Shown piece by piece: positions 7,757 through 32,612 of a stretch of 32,612 nt of DNA. This DNA comes from a virus. Each line of letters begins with the position of its first letter. Within the stretch, counting starts at the first letter, position 1. The notes beneath the pieces are model-generated. The model was not told where the DNA came from, searched no databases, and saw nothing but the letters and a program-made list of their open reading frames with translations. Location: IMG/VR virus record IMGVR_UViG_3300031565_000210, positions 1-32,612 of that record. The stretch is one strand, 5' to 3'. Made by a program: the position numbers and the translations under genes.

Positions 7757-8695
7757 TTATATCTCACCTACATCCTTTCCTGGGTCGAAGAATAAAATGT
7801 CAGCAGACTTTGCTTCTCCAACCACAAAGATTTGGTCTCCACTTTCGGCAGGTGCCGTATCATCACAAGTCCCAAAGGTATCGTCATTTAGGAATACTCT
7901 TGCTGCTCCAAAGTCAAAAGCACTGTCATCTCTTATATAACCTTTAACTAGCATTAAGCAAGTTTCCCCATTTGCTTTAGATTCAAGTGCTATCCTCGTA
8001 GCTTTAGCAGTTCCGAAAGCATCAGCTTTTGCTAACTTCCACTCAACATCAGCCCAGTCGTAATAAAGAAGCTGTCCGAATACTACATTCTCGCCTACAG
8101 GTTGGCTATCCAATTCTCCAGAATACAAATGGTCATCTGCTAAAGCATTATAAAAATCAAACTGAGTATCAGTATTTTGAGTATGTTTCTTTGTTACTGC
8201 ATCTTCAATATCTGCACCAGCAGAAGTTATGTCACTTAAGACATTTACAGTATCTGCTTTCTTAACAAAGGTAGCTTCAAAAGTAGCGTCTAGATCAGTA
8301 TCAGTATTTTGACTATGCTTTTTGGTTACTGCATCAGCCACATCCGTTGCCACTATTCCTGCATCTTTGATGGTTACCACTTCGGCAGAATCATATTCCA
8401 TAAGATTTCCGATAGTAAAAGATCCCGTAACAATAGGTACTGATAGAGTGCCTCCAACTGTGCCATCTTTAGGATATGAATCATCATACTTTGAATGTCC
8501 TAATAAATACCCTAAATCGTTAAGGATTTGCCTAACTTCGTTGGTATCCTCCAGGGCATCGGATTTGTCATCAGTCCCTACATAAAAATTAGTCCCGGAT
8601 TCCTGGGTATATTTGTAATAGGCAAAAACATTTATACTAAATACCAGTAAGATAATTGACAAAATAACTCCTAACCATATTCTTTTTTTAAACAT
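7757..8695 (-). CDS. Exported tail-fibre-like protein with KKH(S/T)QNTDT repeats
   Basis: A 312-residue protein with an N-terminal signal peptide or anchor (MFKKRIWLGVILSIILLVFS, cleavage likely after VFA near residue 25). The central part carries two copies of DAVTKKH(S/T)QNTDT about 44 residues apart, a repeat style found in phage tail fibres. The C-terminal half is beta-rich and resembles fibre/adhesin heads (GQLLYYDWADVEWKLAKAD and following). AGGAGAATATTAAG precedes the ATG. Position after the hub genes supports a fibre role, while the signal peptide hints at export in the infected cell. Confidence 0.7.
   Translation of the reverse strand: MFKKRIWLGVILSIILLVFSINVFAYYKYTQESGTNFYVGTDDKSDALEDTNEVRQILNDLGYLLGHSKYDDSYPKDGTVGGTLSVPIVTGSFTIGNLMEYDSAEVVTIKDAGIVATDVADAVTKKHSQNTDTDLDATFEATFVKKADTVNVLSDITSAGADIEDAVTKKHTQNTDTQFDFYNALADDHLYSGELDSQPVGENVVFGQLLYYDWADVEWKLAKADAFGTAKATRIALESKANGETCLMLVKGYIRDDSAFDFGAARVFLNDDTFGTCDDTAPAESGDQIFVVGEAKSADILFFDPGKDVGEI
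8166..8336 (-). repeat. Direct repeat pair coding for DAVTKKH(S/T)QNTDT
   Basis: Two imperfect copies of about 38 bases (8166-8203 and 8298-8336), 132-133 bases apart, within the tail-fibre-like gene. The spacing is close to a multiple of three and both copies are in frame, so the repeat is a protein unit and not a mobile element. Confidence 0.7.
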
Positions 8696-20465: not shown

Positions 20466-21584
20466 TTAGCCATGAGTCACATTTACCAAGATTACCGCTG
20501 CCTCTGGGTTTTCCACTGCTATGTCTATCTTAAGGTTGTAGAAAACATATTGGCCCTGGTCTTCTGGGGCTCGCTTGCTCTCTAAAGTTAGTTCTTTCTG
20601 GATGCCGATGATAAAATTGTCCTTAGGAGTTAAAATGACATCGGCATATATATTGCCAGCCTCTCCAGCCTCGTAGTCTTCCTGCCCGTCAAGAGTCCCA
20701 TCCACTTTTGCATAGGTAATAGGCATAAGTGGTACTGAGGCAATAGGTACAGTCCTATAGGGGAGATCTACTTCACCCAAAAGGGCTTTATCCCCTAAGA
20801 TAGTTGCTCGATTAGCTAAGGCCTCGGCATAATCATTGGGAATGATATCGTTGCAGAAGAATCTTAGGTTTTTGAGTCCCACTAATTTATACTTGGAAGG
20901 CATAACCGCTAACATCTTGGAAAACTTGAATTCCCAGTCTCCGGTATAAGTACCATCCGCCCCTTCTTTAAGTCTCTCGGCTATCTTACCTTCCATGGTA
21001 AAGTCACCGTCATGCCCAGTTAAGTCAAGGGAAGCATCCAGAAGGGTTGCTTTTTCTGCCGGTAAAACCCCAGACTTGAGGAGCTCGGAATGTCCGACTA
21101 AAAGTTTGTATCTAAAACCTCCCCACAAGCTTCTTATATCCGAATTGGCAAATCCAGGATGGGAACAGTAGGCTGCCTCATCTATCTCATTGGCTACCTT
21201 CTTGGCTATTATCTTCATCAGATGATCCGCAAAGGCCTGTCCTTCGATACCCTCTTCCAGGTCATCATCATAGATTACTACCGCACCCCGCACCTTCTGT
21301 GCTTGCAAGGTGACCTTGCCTTCTGCAAACTCTTTTAGATAGTCTGTAGAAGCGAATTTAGCCGCCGGCTTTAAAAACCTGGTTCCAGCCTTAAACCCCA
21401 GATACCTTAAGTTCTTCTCGACCTTTTCCATCTTCACGATCCGGGCATTGTTCTTCCAAAAGGATTGATCCACTATGTAGTCGATGAACTTATCGGCTTC
21501 TTCTGGAAGCAGATCGATAGCCGGTAAAGCCTTCATGGCTTTCATAAAGTTCTTCTTATTCAATAATTCTTTATTAGTTATCAT
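20466..21584 (-). CDS. Major capsid protein (HK97-fold), 372 aa
   Basis: Full frame 375 residues from GTG at 21593. The ATG at 21584 has better spacing from GAGGTG, so I start there (MITNKELLNKKNFMKAMKAL). Segments RYLGFKAGTRFLKPAAKFAS, KVTLQAQKVRGAVVIYDDDL and KNLRFFCNDIIPNDYAEALA give the usual order of an HK97-fold capsid protein (N-arm, E-loop and spine helix, A-domain). It follows the protease and scaffold-like genes, as expected. An N-terminal scaffold arm seems to be encoded by the separate upstream gene. Confidence 0.88.
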   Translation of the reverse strand: MITNKELLNKKNFMKAMKALPAIDLLPEEADKFIDYIVDQSFWKNNARIVKMEKVEKNLRYLGFKAGTRFLKPAAKFASTDYLKEFAEGKVTLQAQKVRGAVVIYDDDLEEGIEGQAFADHLMKIIAKKVANEIDEAAYCSHPGFANSDIRSLWGGFRYKLLVGHSELLKSGVLPAEKATLLDASLDLTGHDGDFTMEGKIAERLKEGADGTYTGDWEFKFSKMLAVMPSKYKLVGLKNLRFFCNDIIPNDYAEALANRATILGDKALLGEVDLPYRTVPIASVPLMPITYAKVDGTLDGQEDYEAGEAGNIYADVILTPKDNFIIGIQKELTLESKRAPEDQGQYVFYNLKIDIAVENPEAAVILVNVTHG

Positions 21585-21614
21585 TTTTTTCACCTCGATT
21601 CTCTATCGTCGAAA

Positions 21615-22478
21615 TTATTCTTCTTCTTGTCCTATATTTGCGAAAGAAGGCCACGGTTCATCACTTTTCTTGACTTCTCCGTCTCCATCTTCTTCATCCT
21701 GACCCTCTATCTGTTTCTTAGTTCCCTTGGCTTTTTCCAAAGTCTCCAGCCTCTTGGTTAGCTCGGATATGCTCTTATCCTTTTCCCCTAAGTCTTTCCC
21801 CAGTTTTTCTATGGTATCGGTAGCATCTTTTATAGCGCTATCAAACTTTTCTTCTCGCTCTTTTTCCTTATCGGCTCTTTCTTTGTCTTCATCAGACTTT
21901 TTAAGAGCTTTTTTCTCTTCTTCAGAAAGGAGATCAGAAAGGATAGAAATAGCTTTTTTGGTCTCATCTCCCTTAGACAAGGCATCAGAAAGTATTTTGA
22001 TAGCCTTTTTAATCGCCTCCAGAGTGACCTTAGAGATCTTCTTTCCCGCTTTCTCTAAGTCTTCGTCCGATCTCTTTGCGGGATAGGGATAGGGGTAGGG
22101 TTTAGCAGCATATTTAGCCAGTAATGCCACGGCATCCTGTAAATCTTTTGAGAAATCACCTTTGTATTTATTTAAAATATTTAGTGCACCTTTGATGGCA
22201 TTAATGGCCTCGGGAGTAAGCTTCTTCAAAAGCTCAATCTGCTCCTCAGCAAAATTCTCTTGGTCATTGGTTAAACTTTTATAAATTTCTATCAGTTCGT
22301 TCATCTCGAGTTTTCCCTCCTTAATTAAATTTTTGGTATCAGAATCATCCTGGTCTTTATCAGCTGACTTCTGCATATCCTCTTTATCTTTTTTAATAAT
22401 TAGAAATTTTCGTTTTATCGCCGGAATATCAACTAGACTAATTTCGTCCACATCGATATCTATAAGTTGCCTCGGCAT
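21615..22478 (-). CDS. Scaffold-like protein with XkdF C-terminal remnant, 287 aa
   Basis: Residues 1-30 (DVDEISLVDIPAIKRKFLII) match the segment that usually follows the catalytic core of XkdF-type prohead proteases (EISLVD-x-PA). The rest is a long helical, Lys/Glu-rich protein with a PYPYPYP stretch near 127 and a coiled coil at about 190-255, ending acidic. That is the form of a capsid scaffolding protein, which is degraded by the protease during maturation. The start follows GGAAGGTGATTTAG. Upstream is a 367-base untranslated leader with a promoter and two terminators. Confidence 0.75.
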   Translation of the reverse strand: MPRQLIDIDVDEISLVDIPAIKRKFLIIKKDKEDMQKSADKDQDDSDTKNLIKEGKLEMNELIEIYKSLTNDQENFAEEQIELLKKLTPEAINAIKGALNILNKYKGDFSKDLQDAVALLAKYAAKPYPYPYPAKRSDEDLEKAGKKISKVTLEAIKKAIKILSDALSKGDETKKAISILSDLLSEEEKKALKKSDEDKERADKEKEREEKFDSAIKDATDTIEKLGKDLGEKDKSISELTKRLETLEKAKGTKKQIEGQDEEDGDGEVKKSDEPWPSFANIGQEEE

Positions 22479-22845: not shown

Positions 22846-25569
22846 TTAAGAGGGGGAGCTCGCCCTCCCGGCCATGCTGAAACCGGTTAGCTCTTTTTTC
22901 AACACTCTTTCCCAAATATCTTTATTTTCCTTATCTCCTAAATAGACAGCAATCCACCAATCTCCTTTTTCCAAAAGATTATTGGGAGACGTGCCACCTT
23001 TATGGTGCTGTTCTTCTACAAAATAATTCTCTATAATGGGGATTTCTCTTTCTTTACCCTCGTGCATCACTTTAAGTTTCTTTTTTTTGAGCATAAAACG
23101 CTTTAGAGCCTTCCAGACTTCCGGAGGCGTGGTCCAATCCGCCTGCGAATCCGTTTTATAACTAAAATAGACCACTCCGCCGACTATATGCTCTACTTCA
23201 TCGATCTTCTTAAAAGTGAATTTAGCTATTTCCTGTCCATCCTTAATTACCTTCTTTCGCCTCTCATCCCATTCTTTAACTTCTCTCTCTGTGGGTGGTT
23301 TAGATTTCATATACTTTCTGGCCTCCCGGTAGCATTCCCAGTAGCTGGCCTTGTATCCTTTATCCCCGATTTTAGGGGACATCACAGGAAAATAGACTGA
23401 GCGAAGGGCGTCAACTATTGCTGCATAGTATTTTAGGGCATCCTCTAATTTCCATTCTCCCCATTTCTTATCCTCTTTAAGCTTGGGATACCCCGAGTTT
23501 CCGATGTATCTTAAATCGGCGAATAATTCCCTGTGTCTTACTGCAGGATTCTTGAGATCATCATCTATTCCCTCTGCTCTAAACTGTTCAAGGTCAAGCT
23601 TCTCAACATCCGTTCCCTGTTTTATTATCCCCTTTTCCCTTAGAATTTCTTTCTCTTTTTTCCAGGCTTCCTCGTCATCAAATTCGTGCTTTTGGTACCA
23701 GCTATCGGGCATGTTACATATTCCACCTACCGGCTCTTCATCACCACATATCAGACAACGTGGGTGTCCGTTAGGATGGGTGTATTTAGCTGATTTAAAT
23801 TCGTGAACTTTTTCAGCTAAAGGTTCCTTTTTATTTTCATTAATAACGGCTGTTTCTTTATCATATTCTTCTATTTGCTTATCTGATAATTTCTTTTTCA
23901 TTTCTTCATCTTTATAGAGTTCCCTCTTTAATTCAGCCCAGATATTTGGATTCCTATTATCTCCAAATTTCTCTGTTGCTATCTTATCTTTCACTTCTTT
24001 AACAGAAATTATCTCACCCTTACCATCACCGGTTGTAGCCCAATCTTTAAAATGCTCTTTACAAAACCAGGCATGACCTATCCCTTCGGCCCATAGACAC
24101 TCATAGACAGGAGGCTTATCACATTCCATACACTTTTCTCTACTATGTTTTTTATTAATCTGGATATTTTTCTCCTGGGCAAATTCTTTCGCCAGTCTTA
24201 AAATCTCAGGAGCAGCAATGTCTTCTAATTCTCCAGAGTCCCGGTCTGCTTTATTATGCACAATCACATACTCTCTAAATTCCTCTATATTAAATTCAGG
24301 ATGTTCCTTAACAAATTTAGAGAAGTGCCCACTCCCAAAATCACAAAATTCCTCATAGTTTTCTTCTTTATAAAACTCTTCGGCAAACTCCGGCTCATTC
24401 ATCTCTCTAATCTCCTGTGGCTGATGGGGCATCAATACTAAGTCCCAGCCGGTCTGGTATCTCCAGTTGGGCCCAAAAGTCGATCCCAGCCATTCTGGAG
24501 TTAACCATTTTCCGGACATCTTTCCCACCCTCTTCTCCAAGATCCTATCTATCTTTAGTCTTAGAGATTTATCTAGAGTTATCGTAAATCTACCGTCCTC
24601 TTCTTTTGCTCTGACTATGATATCGATATCATTAGGCTTCCGATTGCCCTCCCTCTCGTAAAAGAGAGACCCAGCAATATTTATAAACTCAGGGATCCAC
24701 ACAAATGGAGGAAGTTCTTCGATTAAAACTTCATCGCTTTTTGATAAATAGATGTTTTCCTTCTTGAGGGGGAAATTAGAAATAAGGAGTTCCCTTCTGA
24801 ATTCTTGTGTCCCTTCGGTATTAGAAAAACTTTGTAATACCTTAACTTTTTTTATGTGAAAATCTTTAAATACTTCCTTAATTGCCTTGACATCATTAAG
24901 AGAAAGTATAAATTTTCCTTTTATTCTTTTGCAAAAATCATGAAGTTCTATTAGACTAATATTACCACCAATCGTTTTATTCTCGGTGTCAGGGTAGGGT
25001 GGGTCCAGATAATAAAAGGTTTCTTTAGAATCATAATTAATACTTTCTTTATAGTCATTATTCTCTATCTTTACATCTTTTAATCTTTCTTTTATGTTGG
25101 GGAGTGCGGAAGCACAGTCAGCTTCTTGACCTTCGAAAGAACTAACATAATTTTTAAATCTTGAAAATCTCATCATATATGAAAATCTATAAAATCGTTC
25201 TAAATCATTTTCGGGTTTATTTTTTTTAAGGTTCTCAAAATGACTTTTGCTCCCCACCCAATTTTTCTTTTTTAGCTTTTTCAAATCCTCATCACTAATT
25301 TTTTTTATAAACCTATAAGCAAAAGCGATATCCTTATCTAGATCATTTATCACTTCGATCTCACTTGGTTCTTTAGCGAAGAATACTGCCCCGCCTCCCA
25401 TAAAATTCTCAACATAAGTTTTATGCTCTGGGATATAGCTAACAATAGTTTTAGCCAAATACCTTTTGCCACCAGGAGAACCAAAGGCTGGTCTGATCCC
25501 TTTTTCTAAATCTTCTAAATATTCTCCCTCTCCCTGTGCTGTCAATTTTTTTATTTCTTCTAACTCCAT
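22846..25569 (-). CDS. Fusion: Dam-type methyltransferase, NTase-like, Cys-rich and XkdF protease domains, 907 aa
   Basis: Residues 1-268 form a D12-class adenine-N6 methyltransferase: FGSPGGKRYL, NFMGGGAVFF (SAM site) and DPPY at 189-192 (catalytic). Residues about 285-385 look like a nucleotidyltransferase fold, with AGS (299-301) and NDIDIIV (313-319). Cys-rich segments follow at C480-x2-C483...C491...C503-x2-H506 and C605-x2-C608...C618. The C-terminus (about 777-907) is XkdF-like: VGGVVYFSYKTDSQADWTTP, MHEG (His836), IPIIENYFVE and ELTGFSMAGRA (Ser898), so His and Ser of the S78-type protease are candidates. It maturates the capsid and may carry the other domains into the head. It starts after TTTAGGAGATGA, overlapping nothing. 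Confidence 0.88.
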   Translation of the reverse strand: MELEEIKKLTAQGEGEYLEDLEKGIRPAFGSPGGKRYLAKTIVSYIPEHKTYVENFMGGGAVFFAKEPSEIEVINDLDKDIAFAYRFIKKISDEDLKKLKKKNWVGSKSHFENLKKNKPENDLERFYRFSYMMRFSRFKNYVSSFEGQEADCASALPNIKERLKDVKIENNDYKESINYDSKETFYYLDPPYPDTENKTIGGNISLIELHDFCKRIKGKFILSLNDVKAIKEVFKDFHIKKVKVLQSFSNTEGTQEFRRELLISNFPLKKENIYLSKSDEVLIEELPPFVWIPEFINIAGSLFYEREGNRKPNDIDIIVRAKEEDGRFTITLDKSLRLKIDRILEKRVGKMSGKWLTPEWLGSTFGPNWRYQTGWDLVLMPHQPQEIREMNEPEFAEEFYKEENYEEFCDFGSGHFSKFVKEHPEFNIEEFREYVIVHNKADRDSGELEDIAAPEILRLAKEFAQEKNIQINKKHSREKCMECDKPPVYECLWAEGIGHAWFCKEHFKDWATTGDGKGEIISVKEVKDKIATEKFGDNRNPNIWAELKRELYKDEEMKKKLSDKQIEEYDKETAVINENKKEPLAEKVHEFKSAKYTHPNGHPRCLICGDEEPVGGICNMPDSWYQKHEFDDEEAWKKEKEILREKGIIKQGTDVEKLDLEQFRAEGIDDDLKNPAVRHRELFADLRYIGNSGYPKLKEDKKWGEWKLEDALKYYAAIVDALRSVYFPVMSPKIGDKGYKASYWECYREARKYMKSKPPTEREVKEWDERRKKVIKDGQEIAKFTFKKIDEVEHIVGGVVYFSYKTDSQADWTTPPEVWKALKRFMLKKKKLKVMHEGKEREIPIIENYFVEEQHHKGGTSPNNLLEKGDWWIAVYLGDKENKDIWERVLKKELTGFSMAGRASSPS

Positions 25570-25581
25570 TTAAATCATCTC

Positions 25582-28500
25582 CTAAACCGGTTCCTTTCTT
25601 CCGTATCGGTATCGTTCCCGTCCGATCGCTTTAAGGTCCTTGGCAGGTACAAGAACATAATATCCCGAATCCCTATGCTCGATGGGGTCTGCGGGGAATC
25701 CCTCCGTGGCCTTCCAGACCTGCCAATAATTGCCTGCTCCTTTGGGCCTCTTAAAAGCCTTGACCACATATCTCCCTTTTACTAATTCTTTATTTTTTTC
25801 TGGCAAATTCTCACCAGGATAATAGAAATACTCGTGATAATCCTTCCTTCCGATCCCACTCTTAACTTTCCCTCGCCAAATTAATCCCATCCAGGCATAT
25901 CGATAGGAAGTGGAATTCTTCACAAGAAAATTTGAGATCACAAAATTGCTATCTGTATCAATCTCTAAATCATAAATGTGTAGACCTCCTCCCCATCTTT
26001 TATTATTTTGTTCTGCCACAGGAATATAATAGTATTTTTCATCCTCTTCAATCTCTCTCATTTTTTCTTTCTTTCGCTCAAACTGGAATCGTAGACTATA
26101 CATATTATTATGATTAGTGCCTCCATGATAACAAGTAAGAGATGATAAAATTCCAAGTCGTAGTAGTGCATAAAAACTTTGTCCTATAGCATACCGAGAT
26201 GTACTTCCAATTTCTAATAGTGGTTTCTTACCCCTCGCACCATCTGCATCTATATATCCTTCTAACCCAACTCGCAATAACTTTTTAGGAAGATGAATAA
26301 AGAAGTCCGGGAATTTTTTTGTTGCTGAGGGTTTTATGACTTCATTTCTTGAATGATAATAACAATTTTTTGAAAGCCATTTAGCAAGTCCTCTATCATA
26401 AAATCGCAGGCTCACATAACCTCCTAATTTGCCAGGAAATTTCAGACGTGAAATGGATTCTACATTAAAAATTCTTTTAGTCAAGGATTCATATGAGTTT
26501 GCCTCTTCATCATTAGTGCAATCAAGCGAAATTACACCTTTATCATGATTAATGATAGAGCCATCTCCAATAAAAAAACCAATCCATCGAAGGGCATCCT
26601 CTGTTAATTCAACTTCTTTTTTATAAGAGGGCTCTATTTCCAGAATTATTCTATCGATGCTCAGGCTATTTTCCTTTGGTTTCGGGAGAAGGAGCTTATC
26701 AGATTCAGTAATTTCTAATTCAGTTTTTATACCATTTCTCGTAAATACATCATGATTATAGAAAAGACAAGGAAGTCCCATCTTTCCTTTCAGAAGATGT
26801 CTTTCATGAATTATTCCTCTATCCCAAATTCTTTTTATCGGCTTAAATTTTCCTTCTCCTGTATAAACTCTATCACCAATTCTTAAATTTCTTACGAATT
26901 CATATCCAAAATCTGTCAATATAAGATCATTCGCACTTACACATCCAACCTCTCCGGGGGAGATAAAATATGAACCGCTCTTTATCTGTAAATCAGCAAG
27001 TATTTTTGCTCCTTTCTTACTTATGCTCGGTTCCTTTATTTCTTCTATCTTTTTAATCTTTCCCGGTTCCTCGGCACTAGGCTTTACTAAGGCAAAACTC
27101 TTAGCCACATTCTTCATTCCACTTGCCGTCTCTACTAATTCACCTTTCAACATCCGTAAATAACTTTCTACATTGTTATCGGTAATTACCCATTGCACCA
27201 ATCTCTTTAATCCGGAGAAGCTCATCCTATCATCAAGATGTATTGAGTGACCTTCGAAAAGCTCGGCTAAAGTTATCTTTCCCTTCTTGTATTCCTCTAC
27301 TTCCTCCGGCTCCAGACCTCGAATATGGGTCTGTATAAATGCCTCCCCTTCCCGGTAATCACTATAAAATTCCTTAGGGAGTGGTTCATTCTCCTTAGCA
27401 TGCTCTTTATAAATTTCTTTAGGAATCTTTCCCTCCTCTATGCTTATCTTGACATCATCTTTAACCGCCTTCTCCACCAGTCTTTCTCTCCGAGGAGTGA
27501 ATCCGGAGAGTCTTTCCAATACAAATATCTTATCCGGTACATTCTTTTCCGGAACCGGTTGTAACACCACACTGACATAAGCCTTATAATAGGGGTATTT
27601 AGGATCATCGGTCTCATAGCTATTAACATCTTCGCTGGCTACTCTTAGTATCGAACCTATCACTACATCCTGTTTCGTATTATCCGACTTCCCTATATGG
27701 TTATAAAACTTCTCCCTAAATTCTATTACTGCCTTCTTATCTTTTCTGCTTATAGCCTCTGCCCACTCTTTATCAATGGGTCCTACAGCTAATTCATAAT
27801 TCCAATTCCCGGTCTTCTTTCCTTCCCTGATAATTTCCCTTTCCCCCACTACTAAGCAATCAATCTCGTACCTCTCTTTCCATTTGCAAGCACCATGGTC
27901 TTGAGGTGCTTCATAGTGAGTATTGAGTAATTTAATCATCACTCCTTCGGCAATATGTTTGGGATAAGGACCACCTTTATGGGCATAGCCTATTATCTTA
28001 TCTTTAGCCTTTTCGGCCTTCTTAAGATCTCCTAAATCCACAATATAAGATAAGGCTTCTTTTTGTAAATTGGTTGAGCTTCTAACAAAATGAACGTGCT
28101 CAGAGTCTTTGAATTTATTAAGCAATTCTTTGCGCTCCTTGAGGGGCCAGTCCCTAATATTTTTTCCCTCGTGTTCTACAATATCAAAAATGTAAATATG
28201 AGCCTTCTTGCTAGCCTCGGTCGGGTCGAATTTTCCATTTAGAAGTGCATTAGTAGCGGTTCGGTGAAGACATTCATTCTTTTCCTTATCTATCATTATA
28301 ACTTCCGCATCTCCCTCAAAATCTTCCTTCATCTTCTTAAGCTCTTCTACCTGCCAGGGCAATCTTTTAGTCTTAATAGGAGAGCCTTTAATATCTTCGG
28401 GATCACTCATTATAATTACATCTTTGCCTTTCTTTATAATTTTCGTCCTCATTCCATCAAACTTGGCTTCTACAATTGCTTTTCCTTCCTGGAAATGAGG

Positions 28501-30051: not shown

Positions 30052-31677
30052 TTAATCTAAAATGTATTTTCTTATTATTCTGGCTACAAAGTCCATATTT
30101 TCTTTGGGCAAATTCTTTGCCTCGTAGTTACAGAATGCCTCGGCAATAAATTCTGCTGGCTCCTGGTTGGCATATTCTCCGAAGATATTTTTAATGGTTA
30201 TCTTATCAGTCTCACGTAAATATAGCATAACCTCTGGTGTTGATGTAATCTTTTTAGCAATATCCAATACATGTCCATATTCATGTGCTACGACGCCCTT
30301 AAAGGTAGCTAATTTGTGGAAGCCTGTCTCTACACACTTCTCCATTGATTTCTTAAAGAATTCTCTTTTAATGGGGTTAGCCCACCAATATTCATTGAAG
30401 GCAAGAGATGTTTGACGAGTCGCTTTATTATAAATGGTCTGCGCAAAAGTGCTGTTGGAAGTACGAAGACTGTAAAGGTAGTCCACCGTCTTCGTTAAGC
30501 CCTGTGCAGTACCTAAATTACCTAATTTAATCTTATATTTTTCAATCAATCTAAACAGCTCTTTATTAACTATATTTATGCCTTCCAGATCCATTTTACC
30601 ATAATCTACCAGGCCGTATTCTTTAACTAATTCTTTGTGGGCAAATGAATAAGCTTCATTTTTAGTCTTTGCTGGTTGCCAACCTGGCAGTTTTACTTCA
30701 GGTTTTTTGGGGACCTTAGGTTTCTTTACCCTGGGAATTATTACGATCCAATGGCAACGGCAATTAGGGTGTTTTGGAAGGACTCCTCTAGCTTCGGCTC
30801 GCGTGAATTTTTGCCCTGCCAAATCCAGACATTCGGAACAGGCATCACCAGCCGAAGATATCTCTACTTCTTCATACCTACTTCCCTCTAATGAATCTAA
30901 ATAGCCCTCGTTTACACTCCGGTTAACCTCAGTCCTAGCTATTAGCTCACTTCGGTCTCTCTGTAGTCTACTGTAATATTTGTCATATTGCTTTAGATAT
31001 GCTTTTCCTTTTAAACCCTGGTCATATAAGAAATCCCCATATTTTATTAAAGCCCTGGTTTGTGGTCCATTAAGTCCGATCCCGGTGGCTTCGATATCCC
31101 TTGCTATCTGGGTGAGGGTTTTCCCTTTTTTTAATCCATGGGATACTATTGCTCGCAGTCCCGCTTTAGTTTCTTTTCCTACTAAGGTGACCAATTCGGA
31201 GGAATATTTCTCGGCCCATTCCACGGAACGGGGATTTATAACATCAAAAGAGGCCTCGATCCACGCTTGAGTCAGAGATAAATTGCCGGACTTTTCCATT
31301 ATATTAAGATAGGCCGGTTTGATTATGCTCTTTCCTCTATTTTCTATTATCTCCCAGTCCACATAATCTACTACTATCTCAGGTTCGGATTTCTTCCTGA
31401 TTTTTGCTGGGCCTTTACCCGAAATATAAACAACCGAAGCGATCGCCGAAGAATCTCCTGGCTCTACTCCCTTTTTAAGGATTTTCTTTTTTATATCCTT
31501 TATGATCTGTTCCCGGGCTCCTTGCATCCAGTCTCTTATTTTGGGATATAGATAGGCCTCACACTCATCCATCAATTTAAGTACTTGCTTTCTTAGCCTC
31601 TCTTTTCGACCTATCTTTTCAAATAATACATCTATGAGTCTATTCAATTCTTCTACGGTATCACTGGTTAATGGCAT
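30052..31677 (-). CDS. MuF head-morphogenesis protein with C-terminal zincin domain, 541 aa
   Basis: Residues about 140-315 form a MuF (phage Mu protein F-like) region: RSELIARTEVNRSVNEGYL, then GDACSECLDLAGQKF and LPKHPNCRCHW, with Cys280, Cys283, His303, Cys306 and Cys308 as metal ligands. A Lys/Pro linker (316-335) leads to a C-terminal domain with VVAHEYGHVLDI (HEYGH at 465-469) and EPAEFIAEAF (downstream Glu ligand), a zinc metallopeptidase. MuF-linked C-terminal domains are known as polymorphic toxins or delivered effectors of temperate phages. The gene lies between portal and protease genes, so the protein should be inside the head. Confidence 0.9.
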   Translation of the reverse strand: MPLTSDTVEELNRLIDVLFEKIGRKERLRKQVLKLMDECEAYLYPKIRDWMQGAREQIIKDIKKKILKKGVEPGDSSAIASVVYISGKGPAKIRKKSEPEIVVDYVDWEIIENRGKSIIKPAYLNIMEKSGNLSLTQAWIEASFDVINPRSVEWAEKYSSELVTLVGKETKAGLRAIVSHGLKKGKTLTQIARDIEATGIGLNGPQTRALIKYGDFLYDQGLKGKAYLKQYDKYYSRLQRDRSELIARTEVNRSVNEGYLDSLEGSRYEEVEISSAGDACSECLDLAGQKFTRAEARGVLPKHPNCRCHWIVIIPRVKKPKVPKKPEVKLPGWQPAKTKNEAYSFAHKELVKEYGLVDYGKMDLEGINIVNKELFRLIEKYKIKLGNLGTAQGLTKTVDYLYSLRTSNSTFAQTIYNKATRQTSLAFNEYWWANPIKREFFKKSMEKCVETGFHKLATFKGVVAHEYGHVLDIAKKITSTPEVMLYLRETDKITIKNIFGEYANQEPAEFIAEAFCNYEAKNLPKENMDFVARIIRKYILD

Positions 31678-32026: not shown

Positions 32027-32612
32027 TTAGTCCTCTAACTCTCCTTCGTCCTTGCCCACTTCTTTAAGAAAATCACCTCCAGATAATTTGTTGATTCCCT
32101 CTGTAAGTTCTTCCATCGCCTTGATGAATTTGTCTTCTCTCTTCTCTAGTTCCTCTTCTCCCACTACTTCAAGACCGCTCTTCATATAGTACTTATCCCC
32201 ACCTATATACGTCTTCCCTAAACCTAATTTGTTTCTAGCCTGGTTGGGGGTCATCATTGCATGTCCAATATACTTAATATATCTATCCCCTTCCGCATCT
32301 ATATTTCGAATGTCCAGGGTATTAAGCTTAAATACATACTTGTGGCAATTCAAGCCTTCTTCTATAATCTTAGAGTTAACAATATTTTCCATATCTGTCT
32401 GGTAGGGTTCCACTACTGACTCCACGTATATCTTGGTCCCTTCTTCTGTTTCTTTACCTCCACCTAATTTCCCCACTCTGGATCTAATTCCAATCCGTTC
32501 CCCAGGCATATGATAGGCAATAAGTATATCCTCTACTAATGATTCTCGATAAAGCCTGAAACTACCTTCCTTGACATCCACAGATAATTGTTGCCATTGA
32601 AATTTAGCATTC
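32027..32612 (-). CDS. Portal protein, C-terminal part, cut by right window edge
   Basis: The open frame continues to the edge (first visible residues NAKFQWQQLS), so the GTG at 32581 is only an internal codon. The segments EDILIAYHMPGERIG, MENIVNSKIIEEGLN and MMTPNQARNKLGLG are typical of the C-terminal half of HK97-type portal proteins, the dodecameric ring through which DNA is packaged. The terminase genes should lie beyond the edge. The C-terminus is a charged helix. Confidence 0.88.
   Translation of the reverse strand, partial: NAKFQWQQLSVDVKEGSFRLYRESLVEDILIAYHMPGERIGIRSRVGKLGGGKETEEGTKIYVESVVEPYQTDMENIVNSKIIEEGLNCHKYVFKLNTLDIRNIDAEGDRYIKYIGHAMMTPNQARNKLGLGKTYIGGDKYYMKSGLEVVGEEELEKREDKFIKAMEELTEGINKLSGGDFLKEVGKDEGELED

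Follow-up and report, generated by a model that had tools for sequence, protein, structure and literature searches.

Polyvalent proteins, packaged methylases and head proteases

The closest described counterparts of the locus reported here are the polyvalent proteins of Iyer et al. 2017, late multi-domain phage proteins in which enzymes are placed ahead of a capsid-maturation peptidase. This assemblin-like peptidase is always C-terminal and was predicted to help assemble the virion; the accompanying domains include adenine methylases, and the proteins were predicted to be packaged (PMC5512222). Polyvalent proteins with a Pol-beta nucleotidyltransferase (NTase) were stated to occur only in conjugative elements, and the main text makes no mention of DNA ligase (PMC5512222). 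A C-terminal capsid protease on polyvalent phage proteins has been known since 2017. The protein described here, P0001, differs in that its protease belongs to the XkdF family, and its combination of an adenine methylase and an NTase with an XkdF end, joined in related proteins by a ligase, looks new.

A second counterpart is the Dar system of phage P1 (DarB, DdrB). DarB is a methylase-helicase type protein that is packaged in the head and guards incoming DNA against restriction (PMC5512222, PMC9024508). Like P0001 it is a methylase-containing head protein, with packaging known for DarB and predicted for P0001. In contrast to P0001, DarB relies on a short targeting signal at its N terminus, is not fused to a prohead protease and carries a SWI2/SNF2 helicase.

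The protease domain itself is shared with PBSX XkdF, ICP1 gp125 and HHTV-2 gp38, which have the same active-site residues and the same place between the portal/MuF and the scaffold/capsid genes. The cultured-phage XkdF proteases looked at are 134-350 aa long, which leaves no room for the enzymes of P0001; HHTV-2 gp38 has 542 aa. Proteins from Rhizobium, Pseudomonas, Lactococcus and Colwellia phages, considered as an already known DNA methyltransferase/prohead protease, fall in the same range of 134-350 aa and were rejected as too short for both domains. The 'DNA methyltransferase' label belongs to PHROG_1530, which in P0001 matches the XkdF part. XkdF proteins so named occur in PAK_P3, Psxphi15, Colwellia 9A and RHph_Y1_11, and PaP1 ORF48 is likewise labelled DNA methyltransferase (PMC4177049); all are too short to add a methylase. 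Short XkdF genes under this name were seen in L017 (2919-3335), L018 (1481-1933), L013 (3968-4606) and L107 (2941-3345). Widespread misannotation of short XkdF head proteases as DNA methyltransferases is likely, judging from these lengths and domain matches.

The fusion gene

The window, that is the whole stretch of DNA analysed (32,612 nucleotides), is a 32.6 kb record of an uncultured tailed virus, and P0001 is known from this one metagenomic contig plus its relatives. The gene (22846..25569) is a single unbroken frame of 907 aa that begins with ATG and has an AGGAG ribosome-binding site upstream. It lies on the minus strand, a point left unstated in the initial annotation, which had correctly described a multi-domain frame. 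The product, a polyvalent head-protease protein, is ordered as adenine methyltransferase (MTase), NTase, first and second Cys-rich (putative zinc) sites, helical region and XkdF protease. Pfam matches, motifs and gene order agree with the proposal made there that a head protease of the XkdF type is fused to an NTase-type domain and a methylase acting on adenine, and place this fusion within the head gene cluster. The suggested likeness to polyvalent proteins is borne out as well, since several unrelated enzymatic domains share one chain in a late/packaging gene context. Among cultured phages no relative of the whole fusion was found (best coverage 28%), and searching with the window's own XkdF domain gave one weak match to the XkdF part.

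Whether the C terminus matches XkdF proteases had been singled out as a point on which the proposal could fail. Residues 785-904 (22858..23217, minus strand) match the XkdF / Peptidase_S78_2 head-maturation protease family in Pfam (PF14550, E 2.4e-17) with 63.6 bits against a curated cut-off of 24. The predicted catalytic residues His836 (KVMH) and Ser898 (GFSMAG) are conserved in 54 of 54 and 53 of 53 comparable relatives, respectively. In an AlphaFold2 model of the C-terminal region most protease blocks have a pLDDT of about 80-93, and the best solved match is T4 gp21 (5jbl; Z 6.7 over 103 residues), the runner-up for the domain scoring 3.8. A plain Foldseek search of the protease model against the PDB gave nothing significant; against a viral library its matches were XkdF proteins and the prohead protease of HHTV-2. 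The model supports an assemblin-like fold, short of proof. The gene also has the head operon position of an XkdF gene, near those for portal, scaffold and capsid. The C terminus of P0001 is a predicted head-maturation protease that would be proteolytically active.

Residues 32-246 (24832..25476, minus strand) form a D12 class N6-adenine DNA methyltransferase (PF02086 MethyltransfD12, E 2.2e-19; 70.6 bits against a curated cut-off of 22). The SAM-binding motif NFMGGG (FxGxG) at 55 precedes the catalytic DPPY at 189, and both motifs are retained in relatives. The closest solved structures are 7m6b and M.DpnM (2dpm). The full FxGxG and DPPY motifs are common to M.DpnM, Dam and the P0001 domain, but the recognition region of the latter is divergent and its score of 89.3 bits misses the threshold of the Dam subfamily (TIGR00571, 114.85; NCBIfam), so that on its profile score the domain is not assigned to Dam proper. 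GATC counts carry no information on the specificity of the enzyme. The relative L102 (11597-17858) has, besides a fused methylase, two free N6/N4 DNA methylases recognized by Pfam and a third recognized by an SPPY motif, and these free methylases adjoin a PAPS-reductase-like gene.

The segment that follows (residues 286-395; 24385..24714, minus strand) is a putative Pol-beta-type NTase with GS, DxD and the third Asp intact. Its motifs are AGS at 299, NDID at 313 and the third Asp in GWDLVL at 374, which together make up the pattern hG[GS]...DxD...D. Across the 13 sequences of alignment A2 the G, the DxD and the third D vary little or not at all. The P0001 copy alone matched no Pfam family, whereas the NTase of relatives matches DNA_pol_B_palm at E 2e-6. 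A sequence profile of the NTase searched against solved structures returned nothing useful, and the AlphaFold2 model of the segment has a pLDDT of 46, too low for a fold claim. The Pol-beta assignment is accordingly a predicted one, based on motif and transitive homology.

Two Cys-rich sites come next. The first (residues 469-545; 23935..24165, minus strand) is zinc-ribbon-like with a CxxC...CxxH arrangement (CMEC...CKEH at 480-506) and is conserved in 10 XkdF proteins, and the second (residues 591-650; 23620..23799, minus strand) has a CLIC...C arrangement with CLIC at 605 and is conserved in 7. A helical region (residues 656-780; 23230..23604, minus strand) leads into the protease. Immediately ahead of the helical region, L001, L002 and L003 have an extra 'X' domain of ~140 aa that is absent from P0001.

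Conservation of the fusion

That the frame might be a misassembly, or a chance frame joining two genes, had been raised at the outset; in favour of this are the single metagenomic contig and the splitting of the gene in the relative L002. The same fusion was found in independent contigs, intact in the IMG/VR contig L001 (1051 aa, 89% identity in the best segment) and, from residue 130 onward, in L003, which is 5′-truncated (919 aa, 90% identity). The dN/dS between P0001 and these proteins is 0.05-0.18 across every segment where it was computable and is low on both sides of the junctions. An assembly artefact was therefore rejected, and its probability is negligible. As the ratio is low in all comparable segments, the methylase, the NTase, the Cys-rich regions and the protease are all maintained by purifying selection.

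In L002 the methylase and protease halves are both conserved and are divided by a 250-aa ORF. This ORF (7805-8557) is Cys-rich and endonuclease-like and sits within the extra 'X' domain; an Rfam search at the split found no known intron. Since the gene is naturally split with both halves conserved, the covalent linkage of methylase and protease may be dispensable. The split keeps alive the main rival to our proposal, set out below, that the enzymes travel in the head. According to this rival, they act in the producing cell and the fusion merely couples their late expression. The methylase would modify progeny DNA before or during packaging, the ligase and NTase would mend that DNA, and after self-cleavage the N-terminal part would remain outside the head or be degraded. 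The L002 gene suggests that the enzyme can do without attachment to the protease. Many phages have free adenine MTases, and free N6/N4 MTases are also present in G001, a relative of this virus. However, joining an enzyme to a head protease made in few copies would be a strange way of supplying it in free form, and a protease chain that has time and again taken up different DNA enzymes points to a reason of location. We regard this rival as rather unlikely.

Gene neighbourhood and the ligase partner

Read along the minus strand, the cluster comprises portal, MuF, a 1400-aa ligase protein, P0001, a scaffold-like protein, the major capsid protein, and head-tail and tail genes. The portal gene (32027..32611, minus strand) is cut by the contig end. 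The MuF head-morphogenesis protein (30052..31677, minus strand) ends in a HEYGH metallopeptidase-like motif, and the length and sequence of this C terminus vary among relatives. Downstream of P0001 the scaffold-like protein (21615..22478, minus strand) matches the C half of phrog_3017, and the major capsid protein (20466..21593, minus strand) matches phrog_1623, a virion structural protein, at E 2e-42. The gene order of P0001 from MuF onward recurs in L001 and L002. An equivalent order is found in L059 and L088, with one chain in place of P0001 and its neighbour.

This neighbour, P0002 (25582..29784, minus strand), is separated from P0001 by 12 bases. It contains a shared N-terminal domain, a degenerate NTase with DIN in place of DxD, an MBL-fold domain, an ATP-dependent DNA ligase domain (residues 430-626; 27907..28497, minus strand; PF01068, E 3.3e-14) with an intact KFDG motif at 441, a His/Asp/Arg domain and an intein. 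The intein (Hint + LAGLIDADG; residues 948-1290; 25915..26943, minus strand) comes after a conserved GEVG and is lacking in the L001 homologue. By motif, the His/Asp/Arg domain conserved among the ligase chains resembles the LigD phosphoesterase. Profile searches of the domain gave no support for LigD phosphoesterase, and the name, having motif likeness and no profile behind it, was dropped. Elsewhere in the same virus, at 815-1690, lies a gene for an ArdC-type anti-restriction protein (ArdcN + MPTase-PolyVal).

For L088 (5363-7381), a relative with the NTase-XkdF arrangement, the contig is 51.8 kb long and was assigned to the MAG of a Thermoplasmatota archaeon. The source virus encodes an M15 peptidase, and its close relatives a glucosaminidase and DnaB; these genes, peptidoglycan-type hydrolases included, point to a bacterial host, while the binning of L088, taken at face value, would suit an archaeal one.

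Interchangeable modules in related proteins

An alignment of the protease domain gathered 66 viral loci and two in MAG contigs, and domains were mapped in 55 XkdF proteins. The set was collected with patterns from the family of P0001, and the counts describe that group and not XkdF proteins at large. The NTase is present in 31 of the 55, a ligase in seven, a SAM methylase of the small-molecule type in five, and the Zn sites in 7-10. Found in only four, the adenine MTase is an accessory module. The initial annotation had recognized the methylase in the fusion; it missed that this is one interchangeable module, and also the ligase and other modules of the neighbouring gene.

The simplest relatives consist of NTase and XkdF in 277 aa. 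At the other end of the series, L004/L075 and L033 hold NTase, SAM methylase, ligase, Zn and XkdF within one chain, and a 2137-aa chain in L059 (947-7360) combines an NTase, three tandem adenine MTases, a SAM methylase, a ligase and XkdF. The three L059 MTases have intact motifs and are 75-85% identical in the N-terminal core and 26-33% identical in the recognition region. Such a shared core with divergent recognition is as would be expected of protection at multiple sites. A domain of ~85 aa at the N terminus is common to 32 XkdF chains and to separate ligase proteins, and is not present in P0001. Because the modules of P0001 and P0002 also co-occur in single chains of relatives, we infer that the two proteins are functionally linked.

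Some modules may be inactive, given that L059 and L004 have KLNA in place of the ligase motif KxDG. Degenerate copies of the NTase occur too, with L060 and others lacking DxD. A mainly structural or assembly role, in which the modules serve as an extended prohead core or a scaffold anchor and retain little or no enzyme activity, would account for these altered ligases, for the DIN of P0002 and for an NTase so frequent in XkdF proteins and at times devoid of catalytic residues. Such a role is nonetheless improbable, as the MTase motifs are intact in P0001 and in every L059 copy, the recognition region diversifies while the MTase core is kept, and the P0001 lineage keeps the NTase GS...DxD...D just as P0002 keeps the ligase KFDG.

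Proposed role of the fused enzymes

The reading that we prefer is that P0001 is a polyvalent head protein whose C-terminal XkdF serine protease would help to assemble and mature the prohead. Protease and scaffold are located within the prohead, so the enzymes fused N-terminally to the protease would enter along with it. During maturation the protease would cut itself and the fused part loose, leaving free methylase and NTase in the head, where the partner ligase protein P0002 would also be present. These enzymes would be injected with the genome, shield the arriving DNA from restriction by methylating it, and process or close its ends and nicks. Packaging and delivery of the P0001 enzymes are likely; the account as a whole, from prohead entry through self-cleavage and injection to protection and repair, has in our estimate an even chance of being correct. 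A broader idea, put forward tentatively and with some doubt, is that in this virus group the head protease is a loading platform. Between a conserved N-terminal domain and a constant C-terminal protease would lie exchangeable DNA enzymes (adenine methylases, one to three in number, the other methylase, ligase and NTase) that would be cut free in the head and injected as a marking and repair kit.

For annotation, the analysis flags a probable naming error whereby many phage head proteases are called 'DNA methyltransferase' without a methylase domain. If the proposed role is true, a capsid protease also serves as a carrier that brings enzymes of DNA methylation and repair into the head and then releases itself and them. 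This would account for the protection and mending of the DNA of some viruses ahead of any viral gene expression, and would offer a model from nature for filling capsids with enzymes.
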